Of a stretch of 44,033 nt of DNA, positions 21,482-35,351 are shown one piece after another. Source of the DNA: a virus; the IMG/VR virus record IMGVR_UViG_3300042544_000495, positions 1 through 44,033 of that record. One strand, written 5' to 3'. Position 1 is the stretch's first letter. Every line of letters starts with the position of its first letter. The position numbers were made by a program, and so were the translations under genes. The notes beneath the pieces are model-generated. The model had not been told where the DNA came from and did not search any database. It saw nothing but the letters and a program-made list of their open reading frames with translations.

Positions 21482-23830
21482 ATGGCAGAAAGAATCGTAT
21501 CACCGGGAGTTTTCACAAGAGAAAATGACCTTTCATTCTTAGCACAAGGTGTAGGAGAAATCGGAGCAGCATTTATAGGACCTTTTAAGCAAGGACCTGC
21601 ATTCGTACCTACTATTGTGAGAACCCAATCAGAGTTCGAAGATATCTTCGGTACTCCTGATGGAACTTATTATACTGAATATGCAGTACAAAACTATTTA
21701 AGAGAAGCTGGACAAGCAACAATCGTAAGAGTTGCTGGTATTGGTGGATATCAACAATTAGCACCTTTGGCAATATTTGCATCTGGTTCTAATAGAGATA
21801 CCCAAGCTAAATTAGTTGGAGTATTACATTCAACATATACTGGTAACGAAGGTGTTGGTTTTCCATCAACAACTTTAGTACAAAATGATGCTAGTATTGG
21901 TTCGTTTGTACTTTCTAGTTCAGCAGTAACTTTTAATGTATCTGCATCTATTTTACCAACAGATACTAATGATTTAGCAGATGTATTTGGTGAATCTCCA
22001 TATGGTTCAAAAACAGCATACGCTTACAAATACTTTGAAAACATTGCACAATTTTACACTGGTTCATCTAATGTAATTGGTAATAAGACAGTTTTAACTG
22101 TAGCTCAATTACCAACACAAGAATTCGGTGATGCAAAAGAAGCTGAAACTCCAATTGTTCAATCACAATTAATTAGTGGTGAAAGATATAATCTATTCCA
22201 ATTTAAAACTATTGGACATGGTACATTATATAATACTAAATTTAAAGTTGGTATTTCTAATGTAAAAGCAGCTGGTGAAGATGGAGCAACTGATTATTCT
22301 ACATTTACTGTAACAATTCGTTCATATAGTGATACTGATAAGAGAAAGAGTGTTGTTGAAACATTTAACAATGTAAACTTAGACCCTGCTTCTCCAAACT
22401 ATATCGCTAGAAGAATTGGTGATAGATATTTCACAATTGATTCTAATGGTAAAATTACTGAATATGGTGATTATACTTCAAAATCAAAATATGTAAGAGT
22501 TGTAGTTCAGGATTCAAACGCTAATATTTTAGGACCTGGTTCTTATCCAATATCAGCAGCACCATTCGGACACGAAGCATACACTAACCCTGTTTATTTA
22601 GGTAGTACTGAAAGTAGAGTACCTGCAGTGGTTTACCAAACTGGTTCAGCAAACAACACATCATCATCTCCTGTATATTATGCTGGTTTTGATTTTGAAA
22701 CTGCTGGTGTAAAAAATGATAACGCTCAGTACTTAGCACCAATACCTGCATCAGCAGTTGCTGGGGCAAACAAAGCATTCGCATTTGATGGTGAGCAAGG
22801 GTTATCATATGTAATGACCGGTTCAGCATCAACTGATATGGTTAAGAGACAATTTATATTAGGATTCCAATTCGGATTTGATGGTACTAACCCAACTGTA
22901 AAAATAGCTAAAGCTGGTGATACTGATTGGGGAAATGCAAATCAGCAAGGATTCAATTGCGCAACTTCAACAGCATCTGGTTCGGTAGCATATACAAAAG
23001 CAATCAACGCTGTATCTAATCCTGATGAGTATGATATCAATATGGTAGTAACTCCTGGTATTGTAAGACAATTACATCCGGCTATTACTTCTAAAGTAAT
23101 TGATATGGTTGAAGATAGACAAGATTGTTTCTACATCGCTGATTTCAACGATTATGATGATACAATTACTGAAGCAACTGAGCAAGCAAATTCAGTAGAT
23201 TCAAACTATGTAGCAACTTACTATCCTTGGGTTAAAACAATTGATAGTAACACAAATAAATTAACAACTGTACCACCATCAGTATTGATGCCGGCTGTAT
23301 TCGCTTCTAATGATAGATTAGCAGCTGAATGGTTCGCACCTGCTGGTTTAAATAGAGGTGGTATCACTGGAGCAGTTAGTGTATTAAATAGATTAACGCA
23401 CGCTGAAAGAGATACTCTTTATGAGAACAAAGTAAACCCAATCGCAGCATTTCCTGGACAAGGTATTGTAGCATTCGGACAGAAGACATTGCAAGATAAG
23501 GCATCTGCTTTAGATAGAATCAATGTTAGAAGATTACTTATCACTCTTAAGAAGTTCATCGCTTCAACATCTCGTTTCTTAGTGTTCGAACAAAACACAT
23601 CTACGACTAGAAATAGATTCTTAAATACTGTTAATCCTTATTTAGAGTCTGTACAACAAAGACAAGGTCTTTACACATTCAAAGTTGTAATGGATGAAAG
23701 TAACAACACACCTGATGTGATTGATAGAAACATATTAGCAGGACAAATTTTCTTACAACCGGCTAAGACAGCTGAATTCATCGTAATTGATTTCAACATC
23801 TTACCAACTGGAGCAAGTTTCACAGCATAA
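21482..23830 (+). CDS. 18: Contractile tail sheath protein (gp18-like)
   Basis: This 782-residue protein forms the outer contractile layer of the tail. The start (MAERIVSPGVFTRENDLSF) and the EFEDIFG, YYTEYAVQNYL and ATIVRVAG strings near residues 45-85 are typical of T4-like sheath proteins. The C-terminal 200 residues carry the conserved core: NPIAAFPGQGIVAFGQKTL, RINVRRLLITLKKFI, FVFEQN-type and IDFNILPTG strings. It is longer than T4 gp18 (659 residues), with the extra length in the middle, surface-exposed part (about 100-480), which is less conserved in the family. It is followed directly by the tube gene, the usual T4 order, and preceded by a late-type motif and a GGAG ribosome-binding site. 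Confidence 0.95.
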   Translation: MAERIVSPGVFTRENDLSFLAQGVGEIGAAFIGPFKQGPAFVPTIVRTQSEFEDIFGTPDGTYYTEYAVQNYLREAGQATIVRVAGIGGYQQLAPLAIFASGSNRDTQAKLVGVLHSTYTGNEGVGFPSTTLVQNDASIGSFVLSSSAVTFNVSASILPTDTNDLADVFGESPYGSKTAYAYKYFENIAQFYTGSSNVIGNKTVLTVAQLPTQEFGDAKEAETPIVQSQLISGERYNLFQFKTIGHGTLYNTKFKVGISNVKAAGEDGATDYSTFTVTIRSYSDTDKRKSVVETFNNVNLDPASPNYIARRIGDRYFTIDSNGKITEYGDYTSKSKYVRVVVQDSNANILGPGSYPISAAPFGHEAYTNPVYLGSTESRVPAVVYQTGSANNTSSSPVYYAGFDFETAGVKNDNAQYLAPIPASAVAGANKAFAFDGEQGLSYVMTGSASTDMVKRQFILGFQFGFDGTNPTVKIAKAGDTDWGNANQQGFNCATSTASGSVAYTKAINAVSNPDEYDINMVVTPGIVRQLHPAITSKVIDMVEDRQDCFYIADFNDYDDTITEATEQANSVDSNYVATYYPWVKTIDSNTNKLTTVPPSVLMPAVFASNDRLAAEWFAPAGLNRGGITGAVSVLNRLTHAERDTLYENKVNPIAAFPGQGIVAFGQKTLQDKASALDRINVRRLLITLKKFIASTSRFLVFEQNTSTTRNRFLNTVNPYLESVQQRQGLYTFKVVMDESNNTPDVIDRNILAGQIFLQPAKTAEFIVIDFNILPTGASFTA

Positions 23831-23850
23831 TATGAAAATAAACAAAGTAG

Positions 23851-23859
23851 ATATTTATT
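23851..23859 (+). promoter_or_regulatory. Putative late promoter ATATTTATT for tail tube
   Basis: A one-base variant (ATATTTATT) of the late motif, 22 bases before the tube ATG. An AAGG sequence follows at a suitable distance for ribosome binding. The variant base lowers confidence. Confidence 0.4.
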
Positions 23860-23881
23860 AATATAATAAAAAGGAATAAAA

Positions 23882-24370
23882 ATGGCAGAAATATTAGAGT
23901 TTGATAAGATGTTCTATACGAACTTCGAACCGAAGATGAAAAATAGATATGTGATGGAGATTGAAAATATCCCTTCATATCTTGTAAAGGCAGCAAATAG
24001 ACCTTCAATTCAATTTGAACCTATTGTAATGGACCACATCAACGTTAAGAGAAAGTTGAAAGGTAAGGGAGATTGGCAAGATGTGACTATCACTTTGTAT
24101 GACCCAATTGTTCCTTCAGCAGCTCAGGCGGTAATGGACTGGATTCGTTTAGGACATGAATCAATAACTGGTAGAGATGGATACGCTGACTTCTATAAGA
24201 AAGATATCACATTCTATCTATTAGGACCTGTTGGTGATAAGATTGAACAATGGACTTTAAAAGGTGCATTTATCTCTCAGGCTAACTTTGGTGACTTAGC
24301 ATTTGATTCTAATGAACCTGCAACAATAGAATTAACATTAACTTACGATTACGCAATCTTAGAATTCTAA
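23882..24370 (+). CDS. 19: Tail tube protein (gp19-like)
   Basis: A 162-residue protein that should polymerise in rings to form the inner tail tube. Its length is almost that of T4 gp19 (163). Typical strings are FEPKMKNRYVMEIENIPSYL at residues 15-35, then KRKLKGKGDWQDVTITLYDP, a helix-rich middle (AAQAVMDWIRLGHESITGRDGYADFYKKD), and the end TIELTLTYDYAILEF. It sits immediately after the sheath gene and is followed by a strong terminator, so sheath and tube form their own transcription unit, as expected for two proteins needed in many copies. Confidence 0.95.
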   Translation: MAEILEFDKMFYTNFEPKMKNRYVMEIENIPSYLVKAANRPSIQFEPIVMDHINVKRKLKGKGDWQDVTITLYDPIVPSAAQAVMDWIRLGHESITGRDGYADFYKKDITFYLLGPVGDKIEQWTLKGAFISQANFGDLAFDSNEPATIELTLTYDYAILEF

Positions 24371-24388
24371 TCAAAAGTATATAAAATT

Positions 24389-24417
24389 AAGGGGATTTCA
24401 AAAGAATCCCCTTTTTT
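24389..24417 (+). terminator. Rho-independent terminator after tail tube
   Basis: AAGGGGATT (24389-24397) and AATCCCCTT (24405-24413) form a perfect 9-bp stem with a 7-base loop, followed by a run of T to 24417. Confidence 0.9.
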
Positions 24418-24443
24418 GTGCTTTCTATTTTTTTAAAAACTAT

Positions 24444-24452
24444 GTATTTATA
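24444..24452 (+). promoter_or_regulatory. Putative late promoter GTATTTATA
   Basis: A one-base variant (GTATTTATA) of the late motif, 25 bases before the ATG at 24478 and just after the tube terminator, where a new promoter is needed. Confidence 0.5.
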
Positions 24453-24477
24453 TATACAAACTTAAAATAACAAAGTT

Positions 24478-25239
24478 ATGAGCGAAAAACAATATGATTT
24501 TCCAACGGAGGTATTAGACCTTCCATCTCAAGGTAAAGTATATCCAAAAGATAATCCATTATCATCTGGCAGAATTACTATAAAGTACATGACTGCAAAA
24601 GAAGAAGATATTCTATCAAATCAAAATCTTATCAAAAAAGGTATTGTTTTGGATAAATTATTTGAATCTATTATCGTTGATGGTGTAAACCCAAATGATA
24701 TTATATTGGGTGACAAAAACGCTATTATATTAGCAACAAGATTATTAGGATATGGTCCTGATTATGTATTTAATTTCTATTCTTCTAAATTAGGACAATC
24801 AATACAAGCAACGGTTGATTTGGGTAAAGTTAAAACAAAAGAAGTAGACTTTTCAATGTTCAATAATAAAAATGAATTTGAATTTAAATTACCAAGCAAC
24901 GGAACTAAGATTACATTTAAATTACTTACACACGCAGATGAAACGGCTATTGAAAGAGATATTACCGCATTGGAAAAACTTGGTAAAGATGTATCTGCAT
25001 CAATCACAACTCGTTTAAGATATATGATTAAATCAGTTGATGGTGATAACGCTATTGGTACTATTAATAAATTTGTTAATGGTATGTTAGCTAGAGATAG
25101 TAGAGCATTTAGAGAATATATAAAAACAATATCACCTGATTTGGATATGAAGTTTGAATATACCCACGAAGATGGTGAGGTGGAGGAGGCGCCTATCTCG
25201 ATGGGGGTAGGGTTTTTTTGGCCTGGCTCCGAATCATAG
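24478..25239 (+). CDS. 26: Baseplate hub / tail chaperone protein, gp26-like
   Basis: A 253-residue protein resembling the T4 base plate protein family that includes gp26 (PF12322 by recall): DLPSQGKVYPKDNPLSSGRI, then IKYMTAKEEDIL, then GDKNAIILATRLLGYGPDY, and a C-terminal FFWP. The Cys-x-x-Cys pair that follows the GYGxxY segment in many relatives is missing (YSSKLGQ instead). Such proteins are needed for hub and tape-measure assembly. The last 60 bases change character: codons such as GAG, GTG, GCG, TCG and GGG appear, which this genome otherwise avoids, and the frame ends in GGG-TTT-TTT-TGG. A recoding event there could fuse it to the next gene. Confidence 0.75.
   Translation: MSEKQYDFPTEVLDLPSQGKVYPKDNPLSSGRITIKYMTAKEEDILSNQNLIKKGIVLDKLFESIIVDGVNPNDIILGDKNAIILATRLLGYGPDYVFNFYSSKLGQSIQATVDLGKVKTKEVDFSMFNNKNEFEFKLPSNGTKITFKLLTHADETAIERDITALEKLGKDVSASITTRLRYMIKSVDGDNAIGTINKFVNGMLARDSRAFREYIKTISPDLDMKFEYTHEDGEVEEAPISMGVGFFWPGSES
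25182..25219 (+). other. Candidate programmed frameshift site (T7 run) in the gp26/gp51-like pair
   Basis: A run of seven T (25213-25219) lies just before the end of the gp26-like frame, preceded by GGAGGAGG at 25182-25189 and a G-rich stretch. The downstream gp51-like frame is the +1 (equivalently -2) frame and is open through the T run, starting right after a TAG at 25208-25210. Slipping by +1 or -2 on the T run would give a fusion reading FFGLAPNHSIMVHTQIFDM. Many phages make a second, longer tail chaperone this way (lambda G/GT, and Mu by a -2 shift). Confidence 0.45.
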
Positions 25240-25243
25240 TATT

Positions 25244-25432
25244 ATGGTCCATACCCAAATATTTGATATGGTTCAATATGGGAATGGATTTACTATAATG
25301 GAAATGTATAAAATGCCAACTTATCTTAGAAATTTTTACTATAATAAGTTGGTAGATGCAAAGAAAAAAGAATCAGAAGAAGTTCAGAAAACAAATAAAT
25401 CATCAAATTCTAAAGTTAGGATACGCCGATAA
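25244..25432 (+). CDS. 51: gp51-like hub assembly protein or frameshift extension
   Basis: A 62-residue frame with the pattern Y-G-N-G-F-T-I-M-E-M-Y-K-M-P-T-Y-L-R-x-F-Y-Y-N-K-L, then a charged KKKESEEVQK tail. This fits the short gp51-like proteins that follow gp26 in many T4-like phages and the T-type domains of other tail chaperones. The ATG comes four bases after the upstream stop and has no ribosome-binding site, so translation would need coupling, or the frame is reached by frameshifting from the gp26-like gene. In the fused reading eleven additional codons upstream of the ATG are also translated. Its stop codon lies in the loop of the terminator hairpin that follows. Confidence 0.65.
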   Translation: MVHTQIFDMVQYGNGFTIMEMYKMPTYLRNFYYNKLVDAKKKESEEVQKTNKSSNSKVRIRR

Positions 25433-25455
25433 TCATTGGTAATCCTAACTTTTTT
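25412..25455 (+). terminator. Rho-independent terminator overlapping the gp51-like gene end
   Basis: AAAGTTAGGAT (25412-25422) pairs perfectly with ATCCTAACTTT (25442-25452), 11 bp, with a 19-base loop that contains the TAA stop, followed by T to 25455. Ribosomes reaching the stop would cover the left arm, so termination may depend on translation of the gp51-like frame. Confidence 0.8.
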
Positions 25456-25464
25456 ATTTATGGG

Positions 25465-25473
25465 ATATTTATA
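25465..25473 (+). promoter_or_regulatory. Putative late promoter ATATTTATA
   Basis: An exact late motif placed directly after a terminator and 20 bases before the ATG at 25494; it would drive the tape-measure and baseplate genes. Confidence 0.55.
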
Positions 25474-25493
25474 GATGTTAAATTGTATATACT

Positions 25494-25733
25494 ATGAAAA
25501 GATATAAAATATCAGAATCAAAATTAAATGAGTTTTGGGGATTATTTGGTAAGAAAAAACCTGAAACTATGCAGCAAATTATTGATGATGACCCAATATT
25601 AAAAAAATTAGATGCTGAATTAGCAGATATTAATCAATCATATGTTCCTAGACTTAGACAAATGAAAAAAGAAGACCCAAGATTGTTTAAAAAAATGCAA
25701 GATATGGGGATTATAGGAAAAGATTTTAAGTAA
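25494..25733 (+). CDS. Small hypothetical protein before the tape measure
   Basis: A 79-residue, highly charged, helix-prone protein (MKRYKISESKLNEFWGLFGKK, then DPILKKLDAELADINQSYVP). Short proteins starting KISESKL-type are frequent in T4-like marine phages, but I know no function. It lies 8 bases upstream of the tape-measure gene and shares its late promoter. It could be a tape-measure chaperone or a hub component; nothing in the sequence decides. Confidence 0.6.
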   Translation: MKRYKISESKLNEFWGLFGKKKPETMQQIIDDDPILKKLDAELADINQSYVPRLRQMKKEDPRLFKKMQDMGIIGKDFK

Positions 25734-25741
25734 TACTATAA

Positions 25742-28162
25742 ATGGCAATAAAACCACTTACACCAGCTGAACAATCAGAATTAAATCGTTTGTTAGAAGA
25801 AAACGCTCAGATATCTGAACGTATTCGTATTATAAACGAAAAAATTGCTACTGCCGTAGGTTCTGAAAAACAGCAGTTGGAAGATATGATGGAGCAGGAA
25901 AAAATAAGATTAAAGCTCCAAAAAGAATCTGCAATTCAATATCAAAAAAGAAAGGAATATTTAGATTACGAAGAAGATGCATTGGAATCAATTGCATCGT
26001 TAAGTAAGGCCACTAAAAAAATTATAGATGGTAAGTTTACTACTGAAAGTTCATTAGCTTCTGTTACTCAACGAGTAATTAAAATGAAGCAAGCTGAGGT
26101 AAACTTGGATGGCGCTGCTTTAGAAAAATCAATAGCAAGGAGAGAAACATTAGAAGGGTTGCAAAAAGCTGTAATCGAACAAGCACAATCATTAGCACAT
26201 CACAGCGGAGAGCATATTGCTCATGAGGAAAAAATAGAACAATTTGAGAGAAGTATATCTCATTTAACTACAAAACAAAAAGAAGAAGCTAGGCAATTAT
26301 ATAAAATAAAAGAGGCTTTAGAGAAAAAAGAAGAAAGAATTGCTGAATTGCATGAACAACAACATCAATTAATGCATCATTTGCCGGGGTTTATGAGTGA
26401 AGCTTTGGATTTTTCTAAAGGATTAATTAAAGCTATTACAAAATTAGGACCTTTGGCATTAGTATTTGCTGCAGCTGGGGCAGCATTACATTCGTTTATT
26501 GCATTAGACCAAGCTGCAGAAGATTTTAGAAAAGAAACTGGATTAACACTATCACAAACAAAAGAACTAGCACATCAAGCGCATCATATTGAGATGTATT
26601 ATAGAGATGCTGGTATTGAGTTGAAGGATGTGTTTGATACAATGTCAGCATTAAAAACATCATTTAGTGATGTAGCACAATTTTCGGAAGAAACTGTAGC
26701 TGCATTAACTTTAATGAAAACCAATTTTGGTGTTACCGCTGAACACGCAGCTAATGTACAAAGTATATTTGAAAGTGTGGGTGGATTGAGTTCCGATACA
26801 GCTGCAAATGTTCAATTGCAAGTTGCTAATATGGCTAAGATGTCTGGAATAGCTCCTGATAAAATATTTAAAGATATTGCAGAAAATGCGGAAGCAGCAT
26901 CAACATTTTTTAAAGGTGATTTGAATGCATTAACAAAAAATGCAGTACAAGCACAAAGAATGGGTACTTCTTTAAAACAACAAGTATCTTTAGCAGAAAA
27001 ATTATTAGATTTTGAAAATGGTATAGAGGAAGAATTGGTAGCAGCAACATTTGTTGGGGGTGAATTTAATTTAAGTAGAGCAAGAGCATTGGCAATGGAA
27101 GGTAAACTTGCTGAAGCTAATGCAGAAACGTTATCACAATTACAAAGAAGTGGTGACTTCCGTAAAAAAGATTACTTCACACAACAACAATTAGCTAAAG
27201 CAGCTGGTATGAGTGTGGAAGAAATTAATAAGCAATTAAACGCACAAGAAAAATTAAACTCATTATCAGCTGAAGACCAAAAAATGGCACAAGAAGCTAT
27301 TGATAAAGGATTAGATATAACTAATATAGATAAAGAACAATTAGGACTTGAAGTAAAGAAATTTGCAGCACAGCAAGAACAGCAAGGGCAATTGACTAGA
27401 ATGCAAAACGCATTTATGGGTATTGTTGCTACTGTTGGTGGCGTACTATCTCCACTATTAGAAGGGGTAGCAAGTATAATGAATTTAATACTATTACCAA
27501 TAAACGCAGCTGTTGAGGGATTGGCAAAAATGGCAGGATTCTTAAAAGAAAATTTGGATATAGCTGGTGTATTTTTAGGAGTATTAGGTGCAATATACGC
27601 ACAGAAAATAGCAACTGTTGTTGTATCTCAATATGAAAATGCTATTATGATAGCTAAGCTGGCACTTACAAATAGGGCAGCATTAGCAGAGAAAAAAGGA
27701 TTATTAGCTGGTGTAGCTAAAATGGCTATAAGTGCATATAACTCAATTGCAGCATTCATCCCTGTTATAGGTCCAATTTTAGGTGCGGTGGCAGCTGCTG
27801 GTGCATTGGCGTATGGATATAGTTTGGTTAGTAAAGCTGGAGACGTAATGTCACCTGCTGATGGTAAAACTAGAGTATCAACAAAAGAAGGTGGTTTATT
27901 TGAATTATCGCCAAACGATGATTTAGTAGCAGCACCTGGAGCAGCAAAAGCGATGCAAGGAGCAGCGGCTGGCGGAGGTACACCTCAAATTAATTTAGCA
28001 ATTTTATCTGCACCATTAAATGCTATGATAGCTGAAATAAAAGGATTAAGAGCAGATATGGCTGCTGGTAAAATATCGGTACATATGGATGGAGCAAAAG
28101 TTACAGCAGGAGTATCAAATCAGGTTAATAAGAGTACACGAAATAACTTTGCAATAGCATAA
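25742..28162 (+). CDS. Tail tape-measure protein
   Basis: An 806-residue protein. Residues 1-225 are long charged helices with heptad character (for example EEKIEQFERSISHLTTKQKEE). A hydrophobic, glycine/alanine-rich segment follows at about 233-260 (LGPLALVFAAAGAALHSFI). The middle (about 270-560) is alpha-helical with many Ala and Gln. Further hydrophobic segments occur near 565-640 and 670-705 (IPVIGPILGAVAAAGALAY). Near 730 a STKEGGLFELSPNDDLVAAPG string resembles the C-terminal motif of tape-measure proteins (GExGPE-type). Tape measures set tail length and are ejected to help DNA cross the membrane. Gene order (chaperone pair, then this) fits. T4 gp29 is 590 residues, so the tail may be somewhat longer. 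Confidence 0.85.
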   Translation: MAIKPLTPAEQSELNRLLEENAQISERIRIINEKIATAVGSEKQQLEDMMEQEKIRLKLQKESAIQYQKRKEYLDYEEDALESIASLSKATKKIIDGKFTTESSLASVTQRVIKMKQAEVNLDGAALEKSIARRETLEGLQKAVIEQAQSLAHHSGEHIAHEEKIEQFERSISHLTTKQKEEARQLYKIKEALEKKEERIAELHEQQHQLMHHLPGFMSEALDFSKGLIKAITKLGPLALVFAAAGAALHSFIALDQAAEDFRKETGLTLSQTKELAHQAHHIEMYYRDAGIELKDVFDTMSALKTSFSDVAQFSEETVAALTLMKTNFGVTAEHAANVQSIFESVGGLSSDTAANVQLQVANMAKMSGIAPDKIFKDIAENAEAASTFFKGDLNALTKNAVQAQRMGTSLKQQVSLAEKLLDFENGIEEELVAATFVGGEFNLSRARALAMEGKLAEANAETLSQLQRSGDFRKKDYFTQQQLAKAAGMSVEEINKQLNAQEKLNSLSAEDQKMAQEAIDKGLDITNIDKEQLGLEVKKFAAQQEQQGQLTRMQNAFMGIVATVGGVLSPLLEGVASIMNLILLPINAAVEGLAKMAGFLKENLDIAGVFLGVLGAIYAQKIATVVVSQYENAIMIAKLALTNRAALAEKKGLLAGVAKMAISAYNSIAAFIPVIGPILGAVAAAGALAYGYSLVSKAGDVMSPADGKTRVSTKEGGLFELSPNDDLVAAPGAAKAMQGAAAGGGTPQINLAILSAPLNAMIAEIKGLRADMAAGKISVHMDGAKVTAGVSNQVNKSTRNNFAIA

Positions 28163-28173
28163 AATATAAGTAA

Positions 28174-30075
28174 ATGCCAACAATAGAAGAATTATTTAAA
28201 AGTAAAAAATTAGTTAGTGGGCAAACTGCTGAACAACAATATGATATTCGTAATACTGCTGATTTACGAAGAAATCCATATAATGTTTTAATGACTCCAT
28301 CTTTTAGAATTGCTGAAATTGGTAGAAGAAATTTATCAATCCGAACAAGAGAAAGAAGATTAGAAGAAGAAGTAACTGGACTAAGAATATTAGCAACAAC
28401 AACAAGCCCTTTTATATACGGAACTGATATAATTAAATTCACTACAAAAAGTAGAGGGATTGTGGATGATATGAAAAGTGGAGCTAAGGGTGTTAGTAAT
28501 GGTGGTATATTAAGTACATTTTTAAATAAAGCAGAGAATTTAGGTAACAATATATTATCAAAATTAGGAGTTAAATTACCTGAACAATTAATACCAAGCC
28601 GTATTGCTCTTAATAAAGATTTTGGAACAATAGGTCCATTAGGTCCTGGTGCAAAGCCGGGCGGAGAGTATGCAACTATGATTAGATTACAAAAAATAAA
28701 ATCAGCTGGTGCAGGAAATTTTTTAGGTAAAGTATTAGCCAATAACTTACAAGGAAGACCAAATGAAAATCAATTGATTGGTTCAGCTTTAGAAATTGGA
28801 AAAAAGGCGTTAAACAAATTATTATTGGGGTCACCATCGCAAGCAGCACAACTTAAAGCTAAATTGAGTGATACTGGTGAGACTGCAGGATACGCTAGTA
28901 ATTATCCATATTCAAAAACTGTATTACCTTGGGTTGATGCGAGTACGATAGAAATTAGAGATGATTTATCTTCAAAGTATGTAACATTTCCACAAAAAGA
29001 AATAGGTCCAGATGTTGAATGGGGTAAATATATTAGACCAAATGTAATAAAAACACCAAAAACAAAATTTAGTAGAAATGAAATACAACGTAATAATAGT
29101 ATTGAAAGAGTCAGAGCGATGTTTACAACATCAGATTACTTAAATAAACAGGTTTCATATCCATCAGCAACTGGGTTAAAAAATGATTTAATCAAAGATG
29201 CGGAAAAGCAATTAGATGATTATGATTTTGTAACTTTAAAATTTTGGTCTGTTGTTAAAAAAGCAGCTGTAAATTTTAGAGCAACTATAAGTGGATTATC
29301 TGAAACATTAACTCCTTCTTGGGATACTAACAAATTTATTGGAAATCCATTTAATTTTTATACATACAATGGTATTGAGAGGAGTCTAACATTTAGTTTT
29401 AAAGTATATTCTTTATCATATGATGAACATGTAGCAGCTTGGCAACGATTAAATTTTTTAACAAGTCTTACTTATCCACAAGGGTATTCACAAAATTCAG
29501 TATATGCACCTTTTATTAAATTTACATTAGGAGATATGTTTAGAAATAAAGAAGCATATATAGATTCATTAACATATACAATTGATGATAATTCACCTTG
29601 GGATATTGGTCTTGATGCTGAAACTAAAAATTGGAAATTGCCAAAAATTGTAAATGTTGATATTACGCTTAAATTAGTAGAAACAATTGGAAGTACATAT
29701 CAAAAAAGATTATATGGATATGGTGATGTTCCTGCTAATGTTTCAATTAAGCAAGATAGTAACAAAGAATTAAATGCGGATGGTTCTCCTAAAAAGAAAG
29801 AAGATGGCACTCAGACTGATGTAAAACAGGATTCAAATACAAAAAATCCATCCGAAGAAAAACCAAAAGAAAAAATAGGTCCACATGGTATATTTGTAGA
29901 AAAATACAAAGATTTCAATATATACAAAAAACCAAAACCACCAAATATGCAATATTCGGTAAGAGATGGAGAGCAACCACTTCATACAGGACCTGAAAGT
30001 AGAGGGGATGAGGGAGAATTACTACGTTATGAAAGAAAGTGGATTGATAATTTTATTGCAGAACCATCACGTTAA
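28174..30075 (+). CDS. Baseplate/tube-cap-like structural protein
   Basis: A 633-residue protein in the position where T4-like phages have the tube cap and tube initiator genes (48/54). The N-terminal 200 residues are basic and helix-rich. The middle (about 370-530) has a tube-like beta-domain: PFNFYTYNGIERSLTFSFKV, W-x-R-L-N-F-L-T-S-L-T-Y-P, FTLGDMF and SLTYTIDDNSPWDIG, a pattern I associate with gp54/gp48-type and other T4-like baseplate proteins. The last 100 residues (from about 530) are Lys/Glu/Pro-rich and probably flexible. I infer that it starts or caps the tail tube on the hub. The exact T4 counterpart is uncertain. Confidence 0.6.
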   Translation: MPTIEELFKSKKLVSGQTAEQQYDIRNTADLRRNPYNVLMTPSFRIAEIGRRNLSIRTRERRLEEEVTGLRILATTTSPFIYGTDIIKFTTKSRGIVDDMKSGAKGVSNGGILSTFLNKAENLGNNILSKLGVKLPEQLIPSRIALNKDFGTIGPLGPGAKPGGEYATMIRLQKIKSAGAGNFLGKVLANNLQGRPNENQLIGSALEIGKKALNKLLLGSPSQAAQLKAKLSDTGETAGYASNYPYSKTVLPWVDASTIEIRDDLSSKYVTFPQKEIGPDVEWGKYIRPNVIKTPKTKFSRNEIQRNNSIERVRAMFTTSDYLNKQVSYPSATGLKNDLIKDAEKQLDDYDFVTLKFWSVVKKAAVNFRATISGLSETLTPSWDTNKFIGNPFNFYTYNGIERSLTFSFKVYSLSYDEHVAAWQRLNFLTSLTYPQGYSQNSVYAPFIKFTLGDMFRNKEAYIDSLTYTIDDNSPWDIGLDAETKNWKLPKIVNVDITLKLVETIGSTYQKRLYGYGDVPANVSIKQDSNKELNADGSPKKKEDGTQTDVKQDSNTKNPSEEKPKEKIGPHGIFVEKYKDFNIYKKPKPPNMQYSVRDGEQPLHTGPESRGDEGELLRYERKWIDNFIAEPSR

Positions 30076-30100
30076 AAGATACAACAATTGTAAATAAAAT

Positions 30101-30391
30101 ATGCAAAGCAGATATAAAAATAGTAGATTCAAAAAAACAATAGATGGTAGGGAGGTACTACAATCTAAAATATATCCTAATATCGCAAAAACGGATGATG
30201 ATATATATGTTGCAACTGAAACTGGTGATAGATTTGATACATTAGCATATCAATTTTATAACGATTCTACTTTATGGTGGATAATTGCTTGTGCTAATAA
30301 TATTCATAATGCAAATATTGGAATAAAGGAAGGAACGATTTTAAGAATACCACAAAATTACATTGATATTTTGCGTGATTTTGAACAATAA
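30101..30391 (+). CDS. 53: LysM-type baseplate wedge protein, gp53-like
   Basis: A 96-residue protein. Residues about 40-88 match a LysM-like fold as found in baseplate wedge gp53 and in tail protein X: ETGDRFDTLAYQFYNDSTLWW, then IIACANN and GTILRIP. The start (SRYKNSRFKKTIDGREVLQS) is typical for short baseplate proteins that wrap a neighbour. In T4, gp53 is the last wedge component and links wedges around the hub. The length is about half that of T4 gp53 (196), so only the LysM core and a short N-terminal arm are present. Confidence 0.7.
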   Translation: MQSRYKNSRFKKTIDGREVLQSKIYPNIAKTDDDIYVATETGDRFDTLAYQFYNDSTLWWIIACANNIHNANIGIKEGTILRIPQNYIDILRDFEQ

Positions 30392-33581: not shown

Positions 33582-33613
33582 TTTGGTAATCTAAATTATT
33601 ATTCGTATATTTA
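33582..33613 (+). promoter_or_regulatory. Host-type promoter for tmRNA
   Basis: TTTG (33582-33585), 20 bases, TATATTTA (33606-33613): the Bacteroidota housekeeping-sigma layout (TTTG ... TAnnTTTG). The tmRNA 5' end at 33624 lies 11 bases after it. Confidence 0.8.
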
Positions 33614-33623
33614 CATATTATAT

Positions 33624-34008
33624 GGGGATGCCATGGACTTGATTGCAATGAGAATGGTAGTACCACACGTAGACAGAAGTGCTAGATGTCTTTAAATCTG
33701 TACAAAACAATAACTGACGAAATGTCAACTATGACCTTCGAAGACCTTATGGCTTTCGTAGGTGCTGATTACGCTGTAGCAGCCTAGTCACAACAATCGG
33801 GTCGGTGCACATACAACCTAGGAACAGAAGTGTTTACAAAGGCTTTATTCGTTGAGCCCGAATCAACGAATTGGTGGAAAAGCTGTACTAACCATACGGC
33901 CCCAATTATTTTGGAAAGTGAATAAGATTAAACTTTACCTAAACGTGTGATATGCTGGTATTATGATTACTTTGTAAGACAGGGGTTCGATTCCCCTCAT
34001 CTCCACCA
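33624..34008 (+). ncRNA. ssrA: Phage-encoded transfer-messenger RNA (tmRNA)
   Basis: A 385-base RNA that should rescue stalled ribosomes with SmpB and tag the unfinished protein for degradation. The 5' GGGGATG pairs with 3' CATCTCC in a 7-bp acceptor stem containing the G3-U70 wobble that marks alanine RNAs; ACCA is encoded at the end. The T arm is AGGGG-TTCGATT-CCCCT. The long P2 helix is visible: GTAGTACC/GGTATTAT (33657-33664, 33957-33964), then ACACGT/ACGTGT (33665-33670, 33943-33948). The tag frame ends at TAG 33785-33787 and reads GADYAVAA if it resumes at GGT 33761, or AFVGADYAVAA from GCT 33752; the YAVAA end is a typical protease signal. A perfect 9-bp hairpin at 33847-33871 fits a pseudoknot stem. 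It has its own promoter and terminator. No smpB is in the window, so host SmpB is presumably used. Confidence 0.93.
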
Positions 34009-34050
34009 AAATCCCATTCTACATTAATTTGGTAGTTTGGGATTTTTTTT
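34008..34050 (+). terminator. Terminator of tmRNA, overlapping the next promoter
   Basis: AAAATCCCA (34008-34016) pairs with TGGGATTTT (34038-34046), 9 bp, followed by T to 34050. The -33 TTTG of the next promoter lies in the hairpin loop. Confidence 0.8.
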
Positions 34051-34059
34051 GTATCTTTG
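34028..34059 (+). promoter_or_regulatory. Host-type promoter for the polymerase-like gene
   Basis: TTTG (34028-34031), 20 bases, TATCTTTG (34052-34059), a perfect match to the Bacteroidota consensus. Transcription would begin at or next to the ATG at 34065, giving a leaderless or nearly leaderless mRNA. Confidence 0.8.
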
Positions 34060-34064
34060 TACCT

Positions 34065-35351
34065 ATGAATATTGTTGAGTCTATTGAGGAAATTAATGAA
34101 TTAAAACAAAAGCTGGAAACGGAAGCATCTATTTGGTATCCATTGTGGGTGGATAATAGTAAGCATCCGTTAAACACTCCTCTTTCGCTCATAATTGTAC
34201 GATGTTCTGATGGTTTGTACATTCTACCACATAAACATACAGACGCTCTATCGCTATCTAATGAAGAAATAGAGACGGTACTTAATACCAACGGACAAAA
34301 GTGGGTATTCCAAAAGAAAAAGATATTACATACTTTTAATGTTTCAGTAAATCTATACGATGTGGATTCAGCATACTTTAGAAAGGAAGCAAAGATAATT
34401 GATTATGAAGCCCCTTTAAATCCTCTCCTTTCAACTCTAACTCACAAAGGGTATAGAGATGACTTGATACAATCCCTTCCTCTAATGAAGATTGTGGAGG
34501 TAATAGAACCGCAATTTGGTAAGTACTTCCATAAAGAACCTTATACTCCTACACTTAAGTGGTACAACGAAGTGTTTATACCTACCCTTTCAGATATTGA
34601 ACAATTCGGAATCCGTGTCGATGGGAAAAAATTTATTGATAGATGGCCTCAAGCTCAAAAGCAAATATCCTCCGATAACTTAGTGTACACCGAATACAAT
34701 CCATTTACGGTGACAGGTAGACCATCCAATAGACATGGTGGTGTGAACTATGCCGCCCTAAACAAAACCGATGGTAGTAGAGAATGTTTCGTTTCCGATG
34801 GGATATTCCTACAAATGGATTATAACGCATACCACCCTCGATTGATTGGTAAGTTGGTGAACTTCGAACTACCAACAACCAGTGTGCATGAGTGGTTGGC
34901 TGAACAATATGGATGTGATGTGAACGAAGGTAAGGGAATTACGTTCCGTTTACTATATGGTGGTATTGATGATGACTTCAGACAAATCCCATATCTTAAT
35001 GCGGTAGCTGATTACATTGATAACCTATGGGCTGAAACACAAAAGCATGGATACTTACAAACACCACATAGAGAAATACCATTAAGTTGGATAGAACAAC
35101 CAAATGCACAAAAGGTATTCAACTACTTATTACAAGCCGTTGAGACTGAAATGAATATTGAGGTTATGAGAAAGATATTGGATTATATAAAGGGAAGTGG
35201 TATTAACTTTTGTTTATATACCTATGACTCGTTTCTTTTTGATGTTCCTACTGATATTGATAAGGAATTGATTAAGGGATTGAAGGAAATAATTGAAGGT
35301 AGTGGGTTTCCTGTTAAGGCTAGTTGGGGTTTGGATTACGGAAAACTATAA
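34065..35351 (+). CDS. Divergent family A DNA polymerase-like protein
   Basis: A 428-residue protein. Motif A is LQMDYNAYHPRLIGKL with the catalytic Asp252; motif B is KGITFRLLYGG with Lys290, Phe294 and Tyr298 in exactly the spacing of E. coli Pol I Lys758, Phe762, Tyr766; motif C is YTYDS with Asp388. Unusual changes: His257 where Pol I has the steric-gate Glu710, Val286 for Arg754, and Ser389 for Glu883. Residues 1-150 look like a decayed 3'-5' exonuclease domain (PLSLIIVRCSDGLYILPHKH) without its acidic residues. I chose ATG 34065 because the longer frame from 34029 runs through the promoter and tmRNA terminator. Full T4-like phages use a family B replicase, so this may be a specialised or translesion enzyme. 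Activity is unproven. Confidence 0.75.
   Translation: MNIVESIEEINELKQKLETEASIWYPLWVDNSKHPLNTPLSLIIVRCSDGLYILPHKHTDALSLSNEEIETVLNTNGQKWVFQKKKILHTFNVSVNLYDVDSAYFRKEAKIIDYEAPLNPLLSTLTHKGYRDDLIQSLPLMKIVEVIEPQFGKYFHKEPYTPTLKWYNEVFIPTLSDIEQFGIRVDGKKFIDRWPQAQKQISSDNLVYTEYNPFTVTGRPSNRHGGVNYAALNKTDGSRECFVSDGIFLQMDYNAYHPRLIGKLVNFELPTTSVHEWLAEQYGCDVNEGKGITFRLLYGGIDDDFRQIPYLNAVADYIDNLWAETQKHGYLQTPHREIPLSWIEQPNAQKVFNYLLQAVETEMNIEVMRKILDYIKGSGINFCLYTYDSFLFDVPTDIDKELIKGLKEIIEGSGFPVKASWGLDYGKL

Follow-up and report, generated by a model that had tools for sequence, protein, structure and literature searches.

We found that a contig of a T4-like phage of aquatic bacteria carries a complete tmRNA gene whose tag is 23 residues long (DEMSTMTFEDLMAFVGADYAVAA), with a core that is conserved in many phages and is under selection as protein. 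The occurrence of tmRNA in phages is already known; what is new here is the long conserved tag, for which no report was found in titles and abstracts of the open-licence literature. The window, which means the whole stretch of DNA analyzed, is the linear IMG/VR virus record IMGVR_UViG_3300042544_000495 of 44,033 bases. An earlier note on its sequence had described a complete tmRNA on a T4-like phage contig, to be checked with Rfam and ARAGORN over 33600-34020, and would have given up the claim if a covariance-model match, or the pseudoknots and tag-resume region, were absent. In the window, ARAGORN found a single tmRNA (33624-34008, tag DEMSTMTFEDLMAFVGADYAVAA) and no tRNA, and the Rfam family RF00023 matched the same coordinates over its full length (model positions 1-374 of 374) with 82.9 bits against a cut-off of 47 (E 8.3e-31). 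No other Rfam family reached its gathering score in the window. The pseudoknot PK1 and an open tag frame are present, and the gene is real, being confirmed by the two programs independently. Phage tmRNAs are also less rare than the earlier note had stated: PMC9004378 gives 402 of 18,146 phage genomes (2.3%), PMC8776804 describes a Cellulophaga isolate phage with tmRNA, PMC7162821 huge phages with both tmRNA and SmpB, and a 2014 list contains ten tmRNA phages (PMC4131195). The features of the gene and its flanks are as follows.

33582-33613, + strand: promoter-like element, TTTG-N20-TATATTTA
33624-34008, + strand: one-piece tmRNA gene, CCA encoded
33643-33670, + strand: 5' strands of helix P2, pairing with 33943-33977
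33671-33703, + strand: pseudoknot PK1 upstream of the tag (stems 33671-33675/33687-33691 and 33679-33682/33700-33703)
33716-33787, + strand: tag reading frame, DEMSTMTFEDLMAFVGADYAVAA and stop TAG, resume codon GAC
33799-33833, + strand: pseudoknot-like module after the tag (stems 33799-33802/33816-33819 and 33807-33810/33830-33833)
33841-33871, + strand: pseudoknot-like module (hairpin 33847-33855/33863-33871, stem 33841-33843/33856-33858)
33882-33900, 33902-33914 and 33915-33936, + strand: three further helices
34009-34050, + strand: intrinsic-terminator-like stem and T run
34028-34059, + strand: second promoter-like element, TTTG-N20-TATCTTTG, read from the sequence

RNA Structure

For the covariation test, 75 pairs written from the window sequence were laid on an alignment of 28 tmRNAs. 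Pairing was retained in 85.6% of the cells, as compared with 36.2-47.3% when the partners were slid by one to three columns, a comparison in which the structure is favoured, since it was derived from one of the aligned sequences. Changes on both sides were observed in 42 of the 75 pairs; these cells numbered 222, as compared with 81.3 on average after shuffling. The G3-U pair of the acceptor stem was invariant in all 28 aligned relatives, the T arm was 100% paired, and the helices of P2 were paired in 81-98.5% of the cells each. Both-side changes were found in four of the five pairs of PK1 stem 1 and in two of the four pairs of stem 2. The acceptor stem with G3-U, the T arm, the P2 helix and the pseudoknots, all seen previously by eye, are therefore present and covarying in the relatives; the encoded CCA seen with them holds for the window gene but not for every relative, as some lack it.

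The helices of the modules after the tag were paired in 54-97% of the cells. The two stems of the module at 33799-33833 reached 74.5% and 57.0% in the 28 relatives, several of which have another module type. The hairpin at 33847-33871 showed both-side changes in nine of nine pairs and was 77.5% paired, the short stem at 33841-33858 only 54.4%, and the three further helices 84.4%, 84.7% and 96.7%. The low values are explained at least partly by the relatives that carry another module type. We also noticed that pseudoknot modules of several types after the tag are common to otherwise differing tmRNAs (L039, L048, L102 and L326 versus L003, L010 and others), and these types look as if they had been exchanged by recombination.

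Promoter and Terminator

The promoter-like element at 33582-33613 has a counterpart, TTTG-N20-TAnnTTT[ACG], before all 40 unique tmRNAs of the window's locus type, with a spacer of 20 bases in every case, as compared with only 21 of 102 other viral unique tmRNAs (among the matches listed). A looser form of the pattern preceded 61 of 140 tmRNAs, against 1.4 expected in mononucleotide shuffles (among the matches listed). A generic sigma-70 scan placed one site at this element, which is fewer than in shuffles (mean 2.9). We take the TTTG/TAnnTTTG element to be the Bacteroidota promoter type, and early expression of the tmRNA from such a host-type promoter is plausible. The terminator-like stem at 34009-34050 consists of eight or nine pairs followed by a T run (RNA fold -14.2 to -15.6 kcal/mol), and an inverted repeat with a T run follows 34 of 39 unique tmRNAs of this locus type; an automated terminator scan, confined to loops of 3-8 bases, reported no terminator at this position. 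The promoter and terminator proposed from the sequence alone are thus borne out as a promoter-like element and as a terminator-like stem with a T run. The second promoter-like element, whose end lies six bases before the ATG of the polymerase gene, overlaps the terminator.

Neighbourhood and Conserved Place of the Gene

The genes that define the surroundings of the tmRNA are listed below.

21482-30391, + strand: T4-like tail genes left of the tmRNA (PHROG 23, PHROG 4542, PHROG 150 with PF12322, PHROG 7145)
21482-23830, + strand: tail sheath (PHROG 23, E 1.4e-70)
23882-24370, + strand: tail tube
24478-25239, + strand: baseplate hub
30101-30391, + strand: baseplate wedge
34065-35351, + strand: DNA polymerase gene, conserved right neighbour (PHROG 17, E 1.8e-12)

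The T4-type sheath, tube and baseplate genes place the contig among the T4-like phages. Because the tail genes lie to the left and the DNA polymerase gene to the right, the tmRNA gene stands at the junction of baseplate and replication genes, and not simply inside the late gene order as had been proposed. To the right of the polymerase follow a non-specific endonuclease (PF01223) and, further on, an endolysin. The polymerase is 26.2% identical to a gene annotated as DNA polymerase family A in Flavobacterium phage immuto, where the family A polymerase lies at the start of the record and is followed by a single-strand binding protein, a recombinase and a helicase. By tail sheath, the nearest named records are Microcystis phage Mel-JY01 (47.8%), the 484-kb uncultured phage LR756508 (43.0%) and immuto (41.6%). 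No tmRNA was found in immuto, and Mel-JY01 gave only a 17-bit tmRNA piece. Flavobacterium and, as labelled, Microcystis are the hosts of the distant isolate relatives; judging from the promoter type and these distant relatives only, the host of the window phage is probably a Bacteroidota bacterium.

The polymerase (34068-35351, without the first Met) was used for searches of viral contigs, and the best 80 of 90 loci were kept. Among these, a complete tmRNA lay directly upstream of the polymerase in 66, and a tmRNA piece at the contig edge in two. A tmRNA is accordingly found at the same place in 68 of the 76 loci with upstream DNA, and in 68 of 69 testable relatives when four loci without upstream DNA (L063, L066, L067, L071) and seven distant ones are left out (best 80 of 90). 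The seven distant loci, at 43-47% identity (L072-L074, L076, L078-L080), have no tmRNA at this place, nor does L030, the sole close relative that lacks one, with a different open reading frame there (L030 4540-4950), suggesting that the tmRNA is dispensable on longer scales. Misassembly of a contig with a host tmRNA, and a remnant of integration, were rejected as sources of the gene in view of the same position in 68 of 69 relatives.

A relative of the window's tail sheath was detected in 26 of 30 tag-bearing virus records, at 31-79% identity, and in none of the other four, suggesting that phages with contractile tails share the tag across a broad group. Many long-tag phages carry tRNA arrays. 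SmpB was found in none of 30 related virus records, which are possibly fragments; the control matched in 10 genomes, and the window's 44-kb contig lay outside this search. A ClpP-like gene was present in three of the 30 tag-bearing records (L494-L496), 3.7-3.9 kb from the tag, and tblastn located a ClpP-related gene on the same strand, 3.1-4.3 kb upstream, in seven of 343 loci (L200, L215, L250, L275, L319, L320 and L339; among the matches listed), the flanks of which differ among loci. Since a ClpP-like protein of a phage may also serve as a head protease, we treat the proximity of this gene to the tmRNA as a lead only. G438 holds a second copy of the ClpP-like gene. In LR756508.1, which is related in sheath and polymerase, the tmRNA at 92434-92880 (L487) encodes, as we read it by eye from the resume context onward, a tag of 36 residues, GVNNADYESAGFTAEDFAQMDGESLYHGSERKPAAV, where ARAGORN reads another; a second RF00023 match of 112 bases lies at 414804-414915 of this record.

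The Long Tag of the Viral tmRNAs

The tag frame at 33716-33787 encodes 23 residues, and not ADYAVAA (seven residues) only, as the earlier note had read it. The long frame is open in all 40 unique tmRNAs of the polymerase-locus type. The tags of the relatives have 23-26 residues (122 unique tmRNAs with an ARAGORN tag of at least 22 residues; among the matches listed) and share the core E-[LM]-S-[TS]-x-T-F-[ED]-D-x-M-[AS]-F-[VI]-G. This core was found in 67 of 67 tmRNAs chosen without regard to the tag, namely the window and the polymerase loci (best 80 of 90). Degenerate patterns were written separately for the core and for the C-terminal part; either one matched at least 119 stretches of viral contigs, and together they gave at least 183 loci (L162-L344). 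A tmRNA was recognized by ARAGORN in 143 of these 183 (among the matches listed), and the other 40, several of which are cut by the contig edge, encode the same peptide. In all, the core is present in 211 of 211 viral tmRNA calls (window and L002-L344; among the matches listed), which represent 142 unique sequences, with some contigs entered twice and a few genes cut at the locus edge. One core expression matches 210 of the calls, and the remaining one, L182, reads DEMSTMTFDDLVSFVGAEDYAYQMAA by eye. Across 49 distinct cores of 15 positions, the S never changes, and E, T, F, D, M and F each occur in 44-48 (among the matches listed). The last five residues of the distinct tags are mostly YAVAA (46), YALAA (12) and YAYAA (5), and three distinct endings, EATFA, SMVHA and ELAIA, lack the -AA (among the matches listed).

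In these genes (L164, L165, L182, L195, L202 and others), ARAGORN often chooses the wrong frame or gives a short tag (ADYALAA, ANEYALAA), and annotation pipelines may thereby hide the long tag. Short tags such as ADYALAA at 138-161 were rejected, as the same genes hold the long frame, and so were alternative tags at 202-241 (VNKPEHYLSAP and the like), for which the alignment and the core search give the long frame. A second tag copy elsewhere in the phage genomes was likewise dismissed, since the protein search gave one match in each of 29 records. Searches of Pfam and PDB with the tag returned no match.

Tags of Bacteroidota and Absence of the Core

The Bacteroidota set comprised 395 genomes of the phylum of a Prevotella genome (L345, G001), with an RF00023 match in 393 and a score above the cut-off in 362. 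Host tags were obtained with ARAGORN from 131 Bacteroidota loci, 14 of which gave no tmRNA; L347 and L348 were left out. The tags had 8-10 residues in 114 of 118 cases (for example, GENNYALAA, ADDYSYAMAA and GEYNYALAA), the longest being ANNTPVYAMNSVPVYSLAA with 19 residues, so that the viral tag is more than twice as long as that of the likely hosts. The long core occurred in none of the 117 Bacteroidota tmRNAs kept, and when one form of the tag served as a protein query, it matched none of the 395 genomes and 29 of 29 phage records. The comparison with Bacteroidota tags that the earlier note had called for thus showed a similar ending of the YA[VL]AA type, and a length and core unlike those of the 118 host tags; its suggestion of a phage-chosen sequence is supported in so far as the tag is phage-specific.

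In 84,980 species genomes, the pattern GADYAVAA plus stop, which covers this ending only, occurred once, at a place without an ARAGORN tmRNA. Two tag forms had no tblastn match in 50,697 phage records, where a 36-residue control tag found its own record. Genome contigs scanned with an alignment of the polymerase gave 120 pattern matches and no polymerase relative.

Resume Codon and Selection on the Tag

We compared the resume context of 114 host and 122 viral tmRNAs (viral: among the matches listed). A at -4 and G at +1 were invariant in both, and T at -5 prevailed (94 of 114 and 116 of 122, respectively), a comparison that is partly circular, as ARAGORN picks resume codons by its own consensus, and that leaves out three of 117 host and 20 of 142 viral unique tmRNAs, with ARAGORN tags outside 7-11 and under 22 residues, respectively. 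The resume codon lies at 93-103 in the host genes shown, bar one, and at 89-101 in the viral genes, bar an outlier at 191.

The pN/pS ratio, computed from pairwise counts without a tree, was 0.45 in frame versus 1.04 and 2.35 in the other frames for 18 unique cores of the polymerase set. For 101 cores, a set that includes those picked by the tag pattern, it was 0.31 versus 1.17 and 2.33 (among the matches listed). The last eight codons of the tag gave 0.56 (12 unique) and 0.49 (60 unique; among the matches listed), and are thus no more constrained than the core. These data indicate that the tag core is under selection as protein.

Discussion

We consider it likely that the gene produces a working tmRNA, which works together with the SmpB of the host and marks proteins with a degradation tag specific to the phage. 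The one-piece tmRNA of this T4-like, probably lytic phage, with a host that is probably a Bacteroidota bacterium, would be transcribed from its own host-type promoter and charged with alanine by the host through its G3-U pair. Host SmpB may serve it, because no SmpB was found in related phage records. According to PMC3985003, tmRNA and SmpB enter stalled ribosomes and append a tag, the terminal ALAA of which is read by ClpX or ClpA, with Lon and FtsH acting too. The phage tmRNA would similarly rescue ribosomes stalled on broken messages during infection and append the 23-residue tag, whose last seven or eight residues (GADYAVAA) resemble the YALAA/YAMAA of the hosts and should direct the product to a host protease for degradation. 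The 15 residues before GADYAVAA, a conserved phage-specific element, may be a second recognition signal, for another protease, for an adaptor or for stronger delivery. A change or gain in recognition is suggested by analogy, as a conserved extension precedes a degron-like end and other tags are protease signals: the tag of Mycoplasma, which lacks ClpXP, ends in AFA (PMC3985003), and that of Mesoplasma florum, of other length and sequence, leads to Lon (PMC8138137). Taken by itself, a recognition role of the extension is nearly an even matter; the search for its partner found none, which counts against the explanation that we prefer.

The extension might have no role as a peptide, being conserved as a spacer or for RNA structure, with only the last residues mattering for degradation. 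Long tags can be tolerated and the tag sits in a structured RNA; however, it is the third codon positions that vary and the amino acids that are retained (pN/pS of 0.45 and 0.31 in frame versus 1.0-2.4), the S of the core never changes and its E, T, F, D, M and F hardly do so over the 49 distinct cores (among the matches listed), and constraint is no stronger on the eight C-terminal codons (0.49-0.56). We therefore regard this possibility as quite improbable. It seems somewhat unlikely that the gene mainly serves as a substitute for host tmRNA lost or cleaved in infection, as anti-defence or take-over, and that its tag differs merely through the age and isolation of the gene. Phage tRNAs are described as replacing cleaved host tRNAs (PMC10264068), and many of these phages have tRNA arrays. 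The stability of host ssrA in T4-infected E. coli reported in PMC9697503 cuts both ways, as rescue then seems useful to the phage, but a loss of host tmRNA is contradicted, at least for E. coli and T4; drift, moreover, leaves the selection on the core unexplained. Since prophages use ssrA as an integration site (PMC9004378), the gene could also be a functionless passenger, a copy of host ssrA acquired as an old integration site. With a conserved place, covariation, a promoter, selection on the tag, a tag unlike 118 host tags, and no integrase among the 19 of 26 main ORFs scanned with PHROGs, this origin is hardly credible.

The long tag bears on the question of why phages carry tmRNA. As it differs from the tags of the likely hosts in length and sequence, is selected as a peptide and was found only in viruses, the tag itself, and not only ribosome rescue, appears to be useful to the phage. 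We can conceive, if doubtfully, that many large aquatic phages have replaced the host tag with one of two parts, a core (E-L-S-T-x-T-F-E-D-x-M-A-F-V-G) read by a phage or host factor and a variable degron-like end. If so, what becomes of every rescued protein in the infected cell would be decided by the phage, which might send the products to a chosen protease (the ClpP-like gene lies 3-4 kb away in a subgroup) or give them a mark other than for degradation. The long tag could also become a tool for controlled protein turnover.

Comparison with Known tmRNA Systems

The tag of Mesoplasma florum ssrA, for which the Lon route is known (PMC8138137, PMC3985003), is likewise unusual in length and sequence. 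The four crAss-like phages and Chryseobacterium phage MA9V-3 (L379-L383) also have tmRNA in (presumed) Bacteroidota phages; unlike the window gene, their tmRNAs are permuted (two-piece) by ARAGORN and have tags of 13-17 residues without the core, such as GNNFVTDYTAIGA and GNVIDINKYVAKLEVAA. The published phage tmRNAs, namely those of mycobacteriophages, Bacillus phage G, Streptomyces phages, Melnitz, huge phages and Cellulophaga phage Calle, are similarly phage-borne and often lie among tRNA genes, whereas the tags examined are short, for example, ANSNVASAYALAA in Streptomyces phage records. In RNA features the window gene resembles bacterial one-piece tmRNA and Bacteroidota ssrA, which share the full-length RF00023 match, G3-U, PK1, the place and context of the resume codon and an ending of the YA[VL]AA type. 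In contrast to the 8-10 residues of 114 of 118 Bacteroidota tags, the viral tags have 23-26 residues with a conserved core.
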